Virus record (IMG/VR): IMGVR_UViG_3300043395_000495 | Coordinates: 1-52,252 of that record | Strand: one strand, 5' to 3' | DNA length: 52,252 nucleotides | From: a virus | Shown: positions 10,086 to 48,395 of the stretch, piece by piece | Layout: every line of letters starts with the position of its first letter | Numbering within the stretch: position 1 is the first letter of the stretch | Translations under genes and position numbers: made by a program | Notes under the pieces: generated by a model | The model's input: only the letters and a program-made list of their open reading frames with translations | Databases searched by the model: none | What the model was told of the DNA's origin: nothing

Positions 10086-10473
10086 GCCATGGAGCACAAA
10101 GTCTCATTTCACCTCCCAATGATTTACAGTCATCAGTATAGCACACCGTAGTGTCTATTGGTTTCTCGGAATATCTTGGAGGTATAATCTCCACAGGTTT
10201 CCATCCTGTCTCTTTCTTATATTTTTCTATAGCATCACCAACTGCTTTTTCAGCACGGCAAGCACGTATCTCTTCAATTTCAAGTTTTACATCTTCCAAT
10301 GTATCAATATTTAGTGTTCTTGTCAATTGATCTATCACACACCACACTTTTTGTTTTGGCAAATTTGTGAATGCTGCTATTCCAGATACTACAAAAAGAA
10401 GCACTCCAGATATTATCATCATATCTTTCATGCTAGTTTTTTTCTTTCCGATTTGGAAATTAAACTGAGGCAT
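10063..10473 (-). CDS. Membrane-anchored protein of unknown function (136 aa)
   Basis: A basic N-terminus (FQIGKKKTSMKD) is followed by a transmembrane helix at about 17-36 (MMIISGVLLFVVSGIAAFT) and an 85-residue polar domain with seven cysteines, several near the C-terminus (CYTDDC, LCAPWLDDC). If the domain faces the periplasm these could form disulfides. It is preceded by a late promoter and a hairpin that ends exactly at the ATG. It lies between the secreted lysozyme and the tRNA cluster; a spanin-like role is possible but not shown. Confidence 0.7.
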   Translation of the reverse strand: MPQFNFQIGKKKTSMKDMMIISGVLLFVVSGIAAFTNLPKQKVWCVIDQLTRTLNIDTLEDVKLEIEEIRACRAEKAVGDAIEKYKKETGWKPVEIIPPRYSEKPIDTTVCYTDDCKSLGGEMRLCAPWLDDCPKQ

Positions 10474-10494
10474 GGGGGTGTGATCAGCACCCCC
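10474..10494 (-). promoter_or_regulatory. Hairpin abutting the ATG of the 136-aa gene
   Basis: A 7-bp stem (GGGGGTG/CACCCCC) with a 7-base loop ends at the base before ATG 10473. The late promoter at 10502-10495 would start transcription near 10489, removing the five G of the 5' arm, so only read-through transcripts could form the full hairpin. Confidence 0.6.
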
Positions 10495-10502
10495 TATTTA
10501 TT
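10495..10502 (-). promoter_or_regulatory. Late promoter (AATAAATA)
   Basis: AATAAATA on the minus strand, one mismatch to TATAAATA, 22 bases before the ATG of the 136-aa membrane protein and directly before its hairpin. Confidence 0.5.
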
Positions 10503-10509
10503 CAGTTTA

Positions 10510-14189: not shown

Positions 14190-14861
14190 TCAGTCAAAAA
14201 TACGACCCCAACCATCGTTGCCACCTGGGCACCAGCGATGCTTGAGAACTGCTTTGGTGTAAATGGTCTTCTTACCATTCGTAACTGGACCAGTATAGTT
14301 ATCGTTTAGAGAACCATATGGATCGTTGATGTAATATCCTTTGCCATCTGGTGTCTTACCGATGACTACACACATGTGCCCACCAGTAGGAGCAGATAAA
14401 GAACCCCTATGGAGAATACCAATAACAACGGGTTTGCCTCTATCAAGGCTCTTATCAATGTCAGCGAAAGAAAGATTATAGCTAAAGTGTGACTTAATTC
14501 CATAACCTGCGAGAACTTTCGTCTGTACCGCATGGTCAGTAGTGTCACCAATCGCAAATACTTTCTTGACATACTCATCGTCGCCCTTGATGCTACCAGG
14601 CTTGAGGAAAGCAAGGCACATAGCGCACGATGAACTGTTACAAGTTCTGTGGGCATCTCTGTAGTTATCTACTTGGTTGAAGTATGGAACATCAAGCACC
14701 GCTGGTGTGGGTGGTTTGGTTCTAAACATACCAATCCAATCTGTCTCAGCGTCATCTAGGAATTGTTCTGGTAGGTTATCTTCTAACCATTGAACCGCTG
14801 CTACATGGTTTGAATTGTTCTCATCATAAAATTTGAAAAAGTTATGAAGATCTAAAGTCAT
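14190..14861 (-). CDS. C39-like cysteine peptidase with shared N-terminal domain
   Basis: The first 48 residues (LDLHNFFKFYDENNSNHVAA) nearly repeat the N-terminal domain of the adjacent lysozyme. Residues about 55-223 form a papain-fold C39-like domain: DVPYFNQVDNYRD, Cys74 in TCNSSSCAMCLAF, His162 in GGHMCVVIG and Asp180 in YYINDPYG. Such domains cleave peptides, and in phages often the peptidoglycan stem or cross-bridge. Together the two genes look like a split endolysin, one for glycan and one for peptide. It overlaps the nuclease gene by 4 bases (ATGA). Confidence 0.82.
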   Translation of the reverse strand: MTLDLHNFFKFYDENNSNHVAAVQWLEDNLPEQFLDDAETDWIGMFRTKPPTPAVLDVPYFNQVDNYRDAHRTCNSSSCAMCLAFLKPGSIKGDDEYVKKVFAIGDTTDHAVQTKVLAGYGIKSHFSYNLSFADIDKSLDRGKPVVIGILHRGSLSAPTGGHMCVVIGKTPDGKGYYINDPYGSLNDNYTGPVTNGKKTIYTKAVLKHRWCPGGNDGWGRIFD

Positions 14862-15196
14862 TTTCTGTCTCCGAATAAACTAATGAAATACTCTGCGTCT
14901 ATAACTGCTAATGGTTTTTTGCCATTCTTTTTAATAACGACGAGAGGTTCATAGTCACCGCAGTTAGCGGATGCTTGTTCATAGGCATCCCAGATATTTA
15001 GTTTCTCAACATTTTTACATTCAATACTATGTGGAAACTTTGATCTGGCAGCACGAGCCATGATGAGATCCTCACCACCAGCACCCATAGATCTACTCTC
15101 AATGTCTTCAGGATGAACCTCAAGCATCTCAATTAATTTTTCTCTTACCCACTGCTGAAGACGACGACCCTTTGCTTTAGCTGATTGCGGACGCAT
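14858..15196 (-). CDS. Putative PD-(D/E)XK-type nuclease (112 aa)
   Basis: A basic N-terminus (RPQSAKAKGRRLQQWVREKL) precedes GAGGEDLIM and, about 14 residues on, HSIECKNVEKL. The order E-D ... E-C-K is the core of PD-(D/E)XK nucleases, in which the acidic residues and Lys hold the metal. Length fits small resolvase-like phage nucleases. It follows nrdB and a 49-aa gene; host DNA breakdown or DNA processing is possible. Its ribosome site GGAGG is within a hairpin under late-promoter control. Confidence 0.7.
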   Translation of the reverse strand: MRPQSAKAKGRRLQQWVREKLIEMLEVHPEDIESRSMGAGGEDLIMARAARSKFPHSIECKNVEKLNIWDAYEQASANCGDYEPLVVIKKNGKKPLAVIDAEYFISLFGDRK

Positions 15197-15199
15197 AAT

Positions 15200-15221
15200 A
15201 AAAAACCTCCTTCACGGAGGT
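15200..15221 (-). terminator. Terminator-like hairpin that also holds the nuclease ribosome site
   Basis: Stem ACCTCC/GGAGGT with a 5-base loop, then a T-run, is a terminator for nrdB read-through RNA. The 3' arm GGAGG is also the ribosome site 10 bases before ATG 15196. Late transcripts starting near 15215 would lack the 5' arm. Confidence 0.75.
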
Positions 15222-15228
15222 ATTTATC
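15221..15228 (-). promoter_or_regulatory. Late promoter (GATAAATA) before the nuclease and lysin genes
   Basis: GATAAATA overlaps the TAG stop of the 49-aa gene. With the T4 late geometry the first transcribed base is the first loop base of the hairpin. Confidence 0.65.
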
Positions 15229-15377
15229 TATTCAGCTGAACCAGGGATCTGGTATTTTCTTTTCATTGCTGCCAGAAACCATGCTTCCGACAGAGCTTTC
15301 GGACCCTCCCGTAGTATTCGTTTGCCGTTCTCTGTTAGTTTCTCGTGCTTTAGTGCTTCTTCTCTCCAGTATTCCAT
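15228..15377 (-). CDS. Small basic protein after nrdB (49 aa)
   Basis: ATG at 15377 shares a base with the nrdB stop (TAATG) and opens MEYWREEALKHEKLTENGKR..., a helical, basic 49-residue protein. A competing frame of similar length in the same place is less likely, because it starts well inside nrdB. Translational coupling to nrdB suggests it is made with the reductase, but no function is recognised. Confidence 0.7.
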   Translation of the reverse strand: MEYWREEALKHEKLTENGKRILREGPKALSEAWFLAAMKRKYQIPGSAE

Positions 15378-16522
15378 TACAATTTAAAACCAGCGAAAGT
15401 ATCTTTTTTAACATCCTGTTTAATGCTCCCGATAAGGTATGATTCTACTTCTGTTTCCTGTGGAGCAACTTGCATACCTTTAGAAGATAACCAGTGCTCT
15501 GTCCATGGCAGAGGATTGTTGGTGATAGGAGTGTCAAAGATTGCTTTGAGACCAATGGACTTTAGACGACGATTGGCAGTCCATTCAACATACTTTGCCA
15601 GTAGTTTATCATTCAAACCGATGATAGATCCATCCTTGAACAGATATTCTGCCCAAAGCTTCTCTTCTTCAACACAGTCACGGAACATCTGATAGACATT
15701 CTCTTCCTCTTCTTTGGCAATCTCTACCATGTCGGGGTCATCACCTTCTCTCCATTTGTTTAGAATGTTCTGAGTGATTGTCATGTGTTGGGATTCATCC
15801 CTTGCGATGAGTCCGATGATTTTTGCGGATCCTTCGAGGAGTTTAAGTTCGCCAAAAGCGAAAGAGCAGGCAAACGATACGTAGAACCGAATTCCTTCGA
15901 GGATATATACGTTAGCAACTGCGCGATATAGTTTTCTTTTGAGGTCATACAATGTTTCTTTTGCTGCTGGTGTTCCTTCCAATTCATGCTGCCACTGGTT
16001 TCCTGCTCCCCATTCTGTTGCTGCTTGCAGGAATTCATCATACGAACGAGTTACCGAACGAGCCCTTTGAAGGATCTTGTCATCCTCAAGGATTGTATCA
16101 AACACCTCAGACGGATCAGCATACACATTTTTTATGATGTGTGTATAAGAACGACTATGGACCATCTCCATCGTCTGCCAGATGTTCATGGCACCCTCTA
16201 GTTCTGGAAGAGAACAGTAGGGCATGAATGCCATGCCAGGACCACGACCTTGGACACTATCAAGTAGGATCTGATACTTCAAATTGGAAGTAAAGATATG
16301 CTTTTGTGCTGCGTTTAGAGTTTGGTAATCAGCACGATCTTTCTGGAGAGATACCTCTTCAGGTCTCCAGAAGTATCCAAGCTGCTGCTGCGTCAGTTTA
16401 TCGAACACAGGATACTTGAACTTATCGTAACGTTGGACCCCAAGAGGGGGTCCAAAGAACATCTTCTGTTTTGTATTATCTACTTTGTTAGTATTGAATA
16501 CTGTCATTCCTTCTACGCTCAT
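15377..16522 (-). CDS. nrdB: Ribonucleotide reductase class Ia, beta subunit
   Basis: A ferritin-like R2 protein. The radical tyrosine lies in VHSRSYTHI, which matches the E. coli Y122 site, and iron ligands are seen in MEMVH and RDESQHMTIT. It makes the tyrosyl radical used by NrdA to reduce ribonucleotides for phage DNA synthesis. The C-terminus (TFAGFKL) fits the R1-docking tail. The start is uncertain: ATG at 16522 or 16507 are both possible, and the GTG further up would lie inside nrdA. I used 16522 (381 aa). It follows nrdA with a 16-base gap. Confidence 0.95.
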   Translation of the reverse strand: MSVEGMTVFNTNKVDNTKQKMFFGPPLGVQRYDKFKYPVFDKLTQQQLGYFWRPEEVSLQKDRADYQTLNAAQKHIFTSNLKYQILLDSVQGRGPGMAFMPYCSLPELEGAMNIWQTMEMVHSRSYTHIIKNVYADPSEVFDTILEDDKILQRARSVTRSYDEFLQAATEWGAGNQWQHELEGTPAAKETLYDLKRKLYRAVANVYILEGIRFYVSFACSFAFGELKLLEGSAKIIGLIARDESQHMTITQNILNKWREGDDPDMVEIAKEEEENVYQMFRDCVEEEKLWAEYLFKDGSIIGLNDKLLAKYVEWTANRRLKSIGLKAIFDTPITNNPLPWTEHWLSSKGMQVAPQETEVESYLIGSIKQDVKKDTFAGFKL

Positions 16523-16538
16523 GCAATCACCAGTGGTT

Positions 16539-18851
16539 CTAAATCTTGCAACTGTCACAGTCTTCTTCCTCCGTGCTGAAAATGTCGTTGAGTAAATCTT
16601 CTATGCTTTTCTTTTGTTCTTGGGTGATTGGTTCGTCTTGTTTGATATCGTATGTATTCTGATAGTAAGAGGTCTTCCATCCGTACTTGTAAGTATTCAG
16701 GAAGTCTTGAGCCATCACCGACACAGGAACTTCATTATCGGCATAATTTTCTGGATTATACGACCAGTTTCCAGATATCGCTTGATCAAAGAACTTCTGC
16801 ATAACAGCAACAATATTGATATAACCAGTATTGTCAGGCATATCCCAGAGCAACGTATAATTGTTCTTGAGAGATTGATACTGTGGAACAACTTGCTTGA
16901 GAGGACCCTTCTTTGATTTCTTAACGGACAGGTAATCTCTAGGTGGCTCGATTCCGTTGGTTGCGTTTGACACAACGGAACTGCTTTCCGATGGCATTTG
17001 TGCGGACAACGTTGAATGTCGTAGTCCAGATGCTTGTATCTCGGAACGTAGAGTTTCCCAATCATATTTCAACGTGGGGTCACAGAGTTCATCAACATCA
17101 CGCTTGTAAGTGTCGATTGGCAGGATACCTTGAGAATACTTGGTTCGATTGAAGTATCCACATGCTCCCTTTTCCTTGGCGATTGCGTTGGAAGACTTGA
17201 GGAGATAGTACTGGAAAGCTTCAGTAAGGTCATGGACGAGTTGCCAGGCTCGTGGATCATTGTAGTGTTCTCCTTGCTTTGCGAGATAGTGTGCTAGACC
17301 AATATAACCGATACCCAAAGAACGACGATTAAGAGTTGATTGTCTTGCTGCCTTGACTGGATACTGCTGATAATCAATCAACTCTTCCAATCCACGAACA
17401 GCAAGATCACAAAGTTCTTCGAGGTCATCCAGTTTATGTATCTTACCCACGTTGATGGCAGAAAGAATACACAGGGCAATCTCACCTTCGCCATCAATAT
17501 GCTGGATAGGATCTGTAGGAAGTGTGATTTCCTGACAGAGGTTTGACATATTCACTTTGTCAAGGAAGGAAGAGTGAGAGTTACAGTGGTCAATGTTCAT
17601 GATATAAACACGACCAGTCTCCGCTCTCTCCTTCAGGAGGTCCAGAATGAGTTCTTGAGCTCCAATAGTTTTTCGTGGAACAGTTGTATCTCGTTCGTAA
17701 TCCACATACAGATCGTCAAATCTATCAGTCCCAAAAGCATCATACAGACCAGGAACGTCGTTGGGAGAGAAGAGTGAGATTTCTGCGTCTTGGATGAAAC
17801 GTTCATAGAACAGTTTGCTGATTTGAATAGAGTAGTCTAACTTACGAACACGGTTATCTTCAGTTCCTTTATTATTTTTTAGTACTAAAATATCTTCTAT
17901 TTCTTTGTGCCAGATAGGAAAGTGGACCGTAGCAGATCCACCTCGTATGCCGTTTTGAGTGCAGCATCTGACAGTTGCTTCAAACTTTTTGAGAAAAGGT
18001 ACAACCCCTGTATGCTGTACTTCTCCACCTCGGATTTTACTGTTGATACCCCTGATACGACCCGCGTTGATGCCGATCCCCGCACGTTGAGCAACATATC
18101 TACCAATAGCCATGTCACTGCTAAAGATGCTATCGAGGGTGTCATCAACATCAACCAGAACGCAACTAGCGAACTGTCGAAGTGGTGTTCTAACTCCCGC
18201 CATGATGGGGGTTGGAATGTTGATTTTGTGTTTGGAGATTGCGTTGTAGTATCTTCTGACATATTCTAGACGATCCTTTGTGTAGTTTTGGAACAACGTC
18301 GCAGCAATCATCATGTACATATACTGTGGCGTTTCATATACTTCGCCACTGCTTCTATCTTGCACGAGGTACTTATCAACGATTTGACGTAGACCTGCAT
18401 AAGTGAATAAAAAGTCACGGTCATGATCAATAAAACTATCAATCTTTGCCCATTCTTCCTGATTGTATTTACCAAGAACTTCTTTATCATAGACACCTTT
18501 CGTAGCACACTTGAAAGCATGATCAAGAACAGTGGGGTGGCCATTCACCCAATCAGATCCAAACACCTGCTTGCGAAGTCCGAACAGCAGCAGGCGAGCA
18601 GCGACGAATTGATAGTTGGGGTTCTCCAAGCTGATGAGGTCGCTGGCAGAGCGCACCAGGATCTCCTGAATGTCCTTTGTCTCGATGCCGTCGAAGAACT
18701 GGAGACCCGAGTTCATTTCGACCTGAGAGGCGCTCACACCGCTCCCTAGACCCTCGCAAGCCTCCTCTACCATCTTGTGGATCTTATCGAGGTTGAGGGG
18801 TTCCACAGACCCGTTGCGCTTGCGAACTTTGATATTTTGTCCGTTTGTCAT
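16539..18851 (-). CDS. nrdA: Ribonucleotide reductase class Ia, alpha subunit
   Basis: The 770-residue R1 protein has an N-terminal ATP-cone (VRKRNGSVEPLNLDKIHK), the catalytic cysteines in FASCVLV and ALCILSAIN, the N-x-C-x-E site in MSNLCQEI, and the redox pair CDSC at the C-terminus. With NrdB it makes deoxynucleotides in the host cytoplasm. ATG at 18851 overlaps the primase stop by four bases and has GGAAG upstream; a longer TTG form is not needed. The intact ATP-cone suggests normal dATP control. Confidence 0.96.
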   Translation of the reverse strand: MTNGQNIKVRKRNGSVEPLNLDKIHKMVEEACEGLGSGVSASQVEMNSGLQFFDGIETKDIQEILVRSASDLISLENPNYQFVAARLLLFGLRKQVFGSDWVNGHPTVLDHAFKCATKGVYDKEVLGKYNQEEWAKIDSFIDHDRDFLFTYAGLRQIVDKYLVQDRSSGEVYETPQYMYMMIAATLFQNYTKDRLEYVRRYYNAISKHKINIPTPIMAGVRTPLRQFASCVLVDVDDTLDSIFSSDMAIGRYVAQRAGIGINAGRIRGINSKIRGGEVQHTGVVPFLKKFEATVRCCTQNGIRGGSATVHFPIWHKEIEDILVLKNNKGTEDNRVRKLDYSIQISKLFYERFIQDAEISLFSPNDVPGLYDAFGTDRFDDLYVDYERDTTVPRKTIGAQELILDLLKERAETGRVYIMNIDHCNSHSSFLDKVNMSNLCQEITLPTDPIQHIDGEGEIALCILSAINVGKIHKLDDLEELCDLAVRGLEELIDYQQYPVKAARQSTLNRRSLGIGYIGLAHYLAKQGEHYNDPRAWQLVHDLTEAFQYYLLKSSNAIAKEKGACGYFNRTKYSQGILPIDTYKRDVDELCDPTLKYDWETLRSEIQASGLRHSTLSAQMPSESSSVVSNATNGIEPPRDYLSVKKSKKGPLKQVVPQYQSLKNNYTLLWDMPDNTGYINIVAVMQKFFDQAISGNWSYNPENYADNEVPVSVMAQDFLNTYKYGWKTSYYQNTYDIKQDEPITQEQKKSIEDLLNDIFSTEEEDCDSCKI

Positions 18852-27183: not shown

Positions 27184-27189
27184 TTATAA

Positions 27190-47656: not shown

Positions 47657-47865
47657 AGTTTGCCTCCAACAGTTCCATCGTATTGAATAGTTGGGTCAGG
47701 GAACCCTTCTTGTTTTGCTCGTAGATACCAACGGGTCGCAGAGATAAGGTGTTCCTTACTGAGTGTGGTGAGGATGCCCTGACCTTCTTTATCGTAGCTA
47801 GACCAAGTTCCAAAGCGTTTCTGTTCGACACGGAAACATTTATCAATCCATTCATAATCACTCAT
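47653..47865 (-). CDS. Conserved-type small protein between 55 and 47 (70 aa)
   Basis: MSDYEWIDKCFRVEQKRFGTW... a helical protein with KEHLISATRWYLRAKQEG. Both ends couple by ATGA overlaps, to gp55 upstream and gp47 downstream, which fixes the frame; the overlapping 75-aa frame is rejected. Its fixed place in the 55-47-46 run suggests a role linked to recombination or late transcription, but none is known. Confidence 0.8.
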   Translation of the reverse strand: MSDYEWIDKCFRVEQKRFGTWSSYDKEGQGILTTLSKEHLISATRWYLRAKQEGFPDPTIQYDGTVGGKL

Positions 47866-48356
47866 CGGTTCATTCGGTTCTCAATACTTTCTTTGATAGT
47901 TCCCATGTCAGAATAGGAAGCGTTCATACCAGACATTGTACCATCAAATGTGTCAGTGTGCATTACTTCGTCATATCCTGAACGCTCAAGGATCTTTCCT
48001 TTGATCTCAAGCTGTTTCTTTTCTTTCTGAATGCGACGAAGAAATGCGTAATAGATAATTTGTGTGAAATAAGCAAACGGATTGGTTGATTTTTCTGGAT
48101 CAAAGTTATCAATATACTGTAAGCAGTTTTCAATCCCATCACAAATCATGTCCTCACGGAACATGTAATTGACAAAGTTTGGTTTATAGGATAGGTGCGT
48201 GGCAATCTTCAAGAAACACTCACCCAAATAATTGGTTACTCGTGGTCGAGGTTTTCCCGCTTCCTTCGCAGCAATGACCTTAGATCGGTACTCACTGATC
48301 GCAGCAAGAAACTCTTTGTTATTGACGTAATTTTCTGTCTGTTTTTTTCTTGTCAT
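47862..48356 (-). CDS. 55: Late sigma factor gp55
   Basis: A 164-residue sigma-like protein (T4 185). FVNYMFREDMICDGIENCLQYIDNFDPEKSTNPFAYFTQIIYYAFLRRIQKEKK matches sigma region 2, which binds the -10-like TATAAATA element in T4 late promoters. It recruits host RNA polymerase with gp45. Late boxes before several structural and lysis genes in this window are its likely targets. ATG at 48356 was chosen over GTG at 48371. It follows a host-type promoter 40 bases upstream. Confidence 0.93.
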   Translation of the reverse strand: MTRKKQTENYVNNKEFLAAISEYRSKVIAAKEAGKPRPRVTNYLGECFLKIATHLSYKPNFVNYMFREDMICDGIENCLQYIDNFDPEKSTNPFAYFTQIIYYAFLRRIQKEKKQLEIKGKILERSGYDEVMHTDTFDGTMSGMNASYSDMGTIKESIENRMNR

Positions 48357-48395
48357 TACTGCGAATGTCACGGTTGTCTCACATGATTTGTATCA

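Follow-up and report, generated by a model that had tools for sequence, protein, structure and literature searches.

A probable gene e-type late-start switch, possibly fused to an intrinsic terminator, in front of a cyanophage nuclease gene

The window, by which we mean the whole analysed stretch of 52,252 nucleotides, is that of a T4-like cyanophage encoding gp55, and its relatives in GenBank are marine T4-like cyanophages. On the minus strand, an element of 33 bases stands in front of a phage nuclease gene (Table 1). Residues D43, E59 and K61 of the nuclease are invariant among 30 relatives; its AlphaFold model is of low confidence (pLDDT 55), and a sequence search of the PDB returned no solved relative. 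Upstream of the element lie gp61, nrdA, nrdB and a small ORF. These genes, the nuclease gene and the lysin genes behind it are co-oriented, so that replication genes run directly into lysis genes.

Table 1. Features of the nuclease leader, its neighbouring genes and further box-plus-hairpin loci of the window
Feature	Position	Strand	Evidence
T4-type late promoter box GATAAATA, -13 to -6	15221..15228	-	sequence; T4 box position; relatives
5' arm CCTCC, predicted to be absent from late RNA	15216..15220	-	compensatory pair changes with 3' arm
Predicted late transcription start (+1)	15215	-	T4 spacing
Loop GTGAA	15211..15215	-	differs in length and sequence from relative to relative
3' arm GGAGG, the Shine-Dalgarno sequence	15206..15210	-	purine-rich in all strong leaders
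U-run (TTTTTT) of terminator-like hairpin	15200..15205	-	d = +22.2; followed by ATT and ATG 15196
Client gene: 112-aa nuclease, RusA-like Holliday junction resolvase family phrog_244	14858..15196	-	profile E 2.7e-21
Downstream: C39-like peptidase / endolysin part	14190..14861	-	Pfam Peptidase_C39_2 2.2e-14
Downstream: phage lysozyme	13497..14171	-	Pfam Phage_lysozyme 2.5e-21
Upstream: nrdB	15377..16558	-	Ribonuc_red_sm 2.9e-54
Small ORF between nrdB and switch	15232..15414	-	stop ~11 nt before hairpin
Late sigma factor gp55, expected to recognise the box	47862..48371	-	phrog_234 E 9e-70
Putative second switch of the same design, ACCTCCCT-CTAAATA-CTAGC-AGGGAGGT-TTTTTCTT-ATG, late box in loop	27147..27187	-	opening prediction; conserved cassette
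Third box-plus-hairpin ATAAATAGGGGGTGCTGATCACACCCCCATG, G-rich 5' arm, 3' arm without Shine-Dalgarno	10473..10506	-	S-PM2 homologue

Read along the minus strand, the element consists of TAG, GATAAATA, CCTCC, GTGAA, GGAGG, TTTTTTATT and ATG, with the G of the box common to the preceding stop region. The earlier note had described box, CCTCC, predicted start, GGAGG, T-run and ATG in this order, and the arrangement is indeed present on the minus strand between 15228 and 15196. GGAGG and a T-run do precede the ATG, yet the distance of 10 bases given there has to be corrected, since 9 bases separate GGAGG from the ATG. The three loci among which this one was counted are probably the three window matches of the nested-box scan, at 27185, 15228 and 10506. 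The box is of the TATAAATA-like kind with a variable first base that marks T4-type late promoters, where it occupies positions -13 to -6 (PMC1524935). Related boxes are known from S-PM2 and cyanophages (NATAAATA; PMC2984593) and from phage Aeh1 (CTAAATA; PMC1524935). As T4 late boxes are found at -13 to -6, the RNA would start at 15215, exactly past CCTCC. Removal of the 5' arm by a late start would thus follow from geometry, with +1 placed by T4 spacing, and a late start at 15215 is plausible.

Predicted folding offers a view of what such a start would do to the ribosome site. The cost of opening the Shine-Dalgarno sequence drops from 11.2 kcal/mol in read-through RNA to 4.9 kcal/mol in late RNA, and the stem covaries, which upholds the earlier claim that GGAGG is hidden in the former and exposed once CCTCC is gone. 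Pairing of the Shine-Dalgarno sequence within a hairpin of the longer RNA is hence indicated by prediction and covariation alike, and the folding prediction is robust to shifts of the start by -3 to +5 (15218 to 15210). Predicted opening costs decrease from 12.2 to 3.4 kcal/mol for the nuclease leader of S-PM2, from 14.3 to 4.3 kcal/mol for T4 gene e and, as a median over 38 leaders, from 11.0 to 3.0 kcal/mol. For the 14 late-box genes of the window and S-PM2, the median change amounts to 0.6; ranking these genes by the change places the S-PM2 nuclease first, S-PM2 128361 second and the window nuclease third. The late-box leader at S-PM2 128361 belongs to a virion protein gene, with a predicted opening cost of 9.9 falling to 2.1 kcal/mol. 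Little or no switch is predicted for the leaders of L121, L143 and L148.

The same hairpin displays the anatomy of an intrinsic terminator, a G+C-rich stem directly followed by a U-run. Its d score, calculated with the d'Aubenton-Carafa formula, is +22, next to a second score of +20; ordinary terminators here span -20 to +54, which takes in both values. In contrast, T4 gene e, which has a 12-base loop and no U-run, scores -67 to -78. Scores are lower, reaching -20, where the tail reads TATTTTT, and several relatives lie near or below zero. As the stem is short (5-6 G-C-rich pairs), termination at the hairpin and U-run, plausible in itself, may be partial.

These features can be best explained by a T4 gene e-type late-start switch that is fused to an intrinsic terminator, with early RNA blocked and late RNA translated, and we regard this reading as probable. 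We hypothesize that polymerase coming from the early and middle replication genes through nrdB would make a CCUCC-GUGAA-GGAGG hairpin with a flanking A/U extension. This hairpin would bury the Shine-Dalgarno sequence and, together with the U-run, would release a fraction of the polymerases. Late in infection, RNA polymerase carrying gp55 would start at around 15215; the resulting RNA would lack the CCUCC arm, so that it would neither terminate at the U-run nor hide GGAGG, and the nuclease, followed by the C39 peptidase and the lysozyme, would be translated. The position of the element, where replication genes meet nuclease and lysin genes, speaks for such a timing device. Against it counts that cyanobacteria rely less on Shine-Dalgarno pairing than E. 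coli.

The T-run bears on whether a terminator is involved at all. The element might be a gene e-type translational switch only, with the T-run acting as an unstructured spacer and termination absent, much as the T4 precedent works without a terminator; the shortness of the stem and the scores below zero of some relatives point in the same direction. However, the T-run is kept directly after the stem in all strong nuclease leaders, where it stretches the gap between Shine-Dalgarno and ATG to 9, and such a spacer stands at no other Shine-Dalgarno start except the second switch. A survey of 28 strong-Shine-Dalgarno starts drawn from the window, S-PM2 and part of Syn1 yields a TTTTT spacer in only three, those of the two nucleases and of the 27147 gene. 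This pattern would be expected if the T-run is kept for termination, without amounting to proof. Furthermore, the nuclease leader of S-H34 (L333; ATAAATAGAGGGGATAACACCCCTCTTTTTTTATG) retains box, hairpin and T-run despite a C-rich 3' arm devoid of a Shine-Dalgarno sequence, which leads us to consider a purely translational switch unlikely. The nuclease gene of S-H34 is followed by an annotated endolysin.

The orientation of the hairpin, in turn, distinguishes the leader from its neighbours. In the ordinary terminators of these phages, G predominates in the 5' arm and C in the 3' arm. Among those of S-PM2, eight have a 3' arm rich in C and one has an equal one, and the only G-rich 3' arm is that of the nuclease leader. 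Good terminator anatomy directly after the upstream ORF would also suit a plain terminator of the nrdB unit with an adjoining late promoter, the hidden Shine-Dalgarno sequence being incidental. Such a terminator would hardly be flipped relative to the others, with a purine 3' arm always at Shine-Dalgarno distance, and the leader moreover follows the nuclease where the upstream gene differs (L124, L138, L159), making this explanation very improbable.

Whether the box could have arisen by chance depends on its setting. ATAAATA is neither rarer nor commoner in the window than chance would have it (12 found, 11.0 expected), so that the box alone proves nothing. Box and stem together are unusual: a perfect stem of at least 5 pairs, at least 4 of them G-C, lies within 3 nt of the box in 0.38% of random flanks. 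Among 335 terminator-like hairpins from the window, S-PM2 and part of Syn1, ATAAATA adopts the escaping geometry five times, compared with 0-2 times for each of 20 other arrangements of the same letters. The box would be no promoter at all if it were an AT-rich stretch that by chance supplied the A side of a terminator, as the chance-level count in the window and 38 of 101 CTAAATACC...GGTATTT hairpins in other phages with no gene start behind them might suggest. We find this hardly credible, as it is the box, and not other A/T arrangements, that is enriched in the nested position, as CTAAATA occurs upstream of gp23 in S-PM2 and Syn1 and of gp3 in Syn1, and as the in-loop box of the second locus cannot be an A-tract.

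Comparative conservation is the strongest evidence that the putative switch is real and not a product of chance. The orthologous nuclease of S-PM2 is preceded by the same leader, and so are most of the nucleases at 80 metagenomic loci picked by protein similarity. In these, the box reads ATAAATA or CTAAATA, the stem shows compensatory changes, the loop varies, and a 3' arm rich in purines is followed by a T-run and the ATG. This comparison, together with folding, supports the interpretation of the earlier note in part. A TAAATA box is found in 47 of 62 distinct nuclease leaders. Within a set of 32 distinct leaders, mostly from protein-selected loci with a few from the pattern search, 94.6% of the stem cells are paired, against at most 57% when the stem is slid, a percentage that is partly built in because these leaders were chosen for having a stem. 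The compensatory changes are therefore the informative part: the stem contains eight double-change cells, a number matched in 0 of 500 shuffles, and three pairs are altered on both sides. Any leader is missing from 22 of the 80 loci and also from Syn1, S-CAM1 and S-RIM32.

The relatives also shed light on the small ORF, which is often present in them. With its stop codon about 11 nt before the stem, it could be its translation that controls the nuclease, a stopping ribosome opening the stem to give translational coupling and not early silence. However, a ribosome stopped at this codon would extend no further than the stem base, the leader is still there where the small ORF has been replaced (L124, L138), and why the late box stands exactly where it does would be left unexplained; we consider control by the small ORF extremely unlikely. 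Within the preferred reading of a late-start switch, a ribosome stopping at this distance could nonetheless disturb the hairpin.

The putative second switch of the window repeats the design with unrelated sequence. A T-run and an ATG accompany its hairpin arms AAACCTCCCT/AGGGAGGTTT. The first bases of late RNA would be AGGGAGG, and the predicted cost of opening the Shine-Dalgarno sequence falls from 16.6 to 5.1 kcal/mol. A protein search for relatives of the 27147 gene retrieved only the same contig, and the leader pattern was therefore used to find relatives of this locus. It is present in at least 118 stretches, at least 96 of them with a start codon behind; the CCTC/GAGG core is built into loci found in this way, whereas this does not apply to the bases of the inner stem or to the fixed location. 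Among the matches listed, most leaders sit after gp41/MazG and before a phrog_455 gene, and the leader precedes at least eight protein clusters that are not alike at E 1e-4. The one locus between MazG and the phrog_455 gene is a variable gene slot behind a fixed, predicted late-start leader. This candidate second, independent instance at 27185, with its cassette, speaks for a late-start switch fused to a terminator. A nearly constant leader, ACCTCCCTCTAAATAGTTAGACGGGAGGTTTTTT-ATG, is shared by window positions 27187-27147 and loci L336-L452.

Tentatively, and with somewhat less than even confidence, we extend this reading to a general class of three-in-one leaders in T4-like cyanophages, in which a terminator hairpin would harbor a gp55 promoter and offer its 3' arm as ribosome site, the cassette standing before exchangeable genes at a variable slot behind gp41/MazG. 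If this holds true, the choice of start site alone would turn termination and a translation block into expression. The recurrence of the cassette before unrelated genes would provide a sequence handle for finding late-timed genes.

Two further arrangements of promoter and hairpin resemble the switch in part. At 22310-22281 of the window, a terminator combined with ATAAATA likewise insulates a late gene. There the promoter follows the T-run, whereas at the switch it lies before or inside the hairpin, so that only the latter start skips the 5' arm. Upstream of gp13, the loop of a strong terminator-like hairpin consists of GATAAATA (Syn1 position 104708, L325; S-PM2 66785); the late promoter is nested as at the switch, but the 3' arm carries no Shine-Dalgarno sequence near the start codon.

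The core mechanism is not new. That a late start frees a hidden ribosome site has been established for T4 e, soc, 49 and I-TevI, early-RNA repression of T4 lysozyme being ~100-fold (PMC3014915), and for several homing endonucleases (PMC2988022). The gene e leader shares with ours a TATAAATA-CCTTC...GGAGG-ATG layout, in which the late start lies within the hairpin and leaves the RNA without its 5' arm, and a similar change in predicted opening cost; our pattern search also retrieved the gene e leaders of T4-like enterobacterial phages. Unlike the leader described here, whose first gene is a nuclease, the T4 e switch serves lysozyme directly. In T4 49 and soc, I-TevI/II/III, segB and Aeh1 mobE, early RNA hides the ribosome site, which is freed by a late promoter lying within the hairpin or next to it (PMC3014915, PMC2988022). 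Gene 49 encodes a Holliday junction resolvase, which is also the annotation of the window nuclease. These examples differ in coming from other phages and unrelated proteins, and the passages on them in both sources make no mention of a terminator function. A 2010 review has S-PM2, syn9, P-SSM2 and P-SSM4 without an apparent gene e (PMC3014915). The literature searched, consisting largely of open-access papers, contained no cyanophage leaders of such a layout and no such fusion with a terminator, and the occurrence in cyanophages is apparently undescribed. Given the established T4 cases, the element would represent a cyanophage variant of the known T4 switch, extending the classic control of T4 lysozyme to abundant cyanophages. 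With a possible terminator on the same bases, it would form a very small two-level timer whose only protein regulator is the late sigma factor.

The earlier note had further claimed that the switch holds the nuclease and the two lysins silent until late infection, of which the lysin part is weak. Each of the 34 loci in which lysin genes follow directly, S-PM2 among them, has a late box, and such lysins are absent from all 17 testable box-less loci. However, the box is also found in 23 of 40 testable loci without a recognised lysin downstream, and L138 and L159 have a box-less lysin gene on the upstream side, the leader having stayed with the nuclease. On the nuclease tree, changes in the leader and lysin traits are too few to support an association, which lacks phylogenetic independence. 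This non-independence, together with L138 and L159, undoes the hypothesis of a lysin guard, and the claim that the switch mainly guards the lysins is weak. The nuclease seems to be the main client, and the lysins may profit from the switch.

The third box-plus-hairpin of the window is strong and ends at or near the ATG, and late RNA would retain no Shine-Dalgarno sequence. At S-PM2 117800, a homologous gene with 40% protein identity to that of the 10506 locus is likewise preceded by box and hairpin. In other phages, CTAAATACC...GGTATTTT hairpins stand directly before starts, for instance in L207, L219, L254, L265, L283 and L320, and their clients include a connector (phrog_211), the terminase large subunit and a homing endonuclease. 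At ~5210-5236 of L106, a symmetric ATAAATACCTCC...GGAGGTATTTAT element can be read as box plus hairpin on either strand; it precedes a GIY-YIG homing endonuclease.
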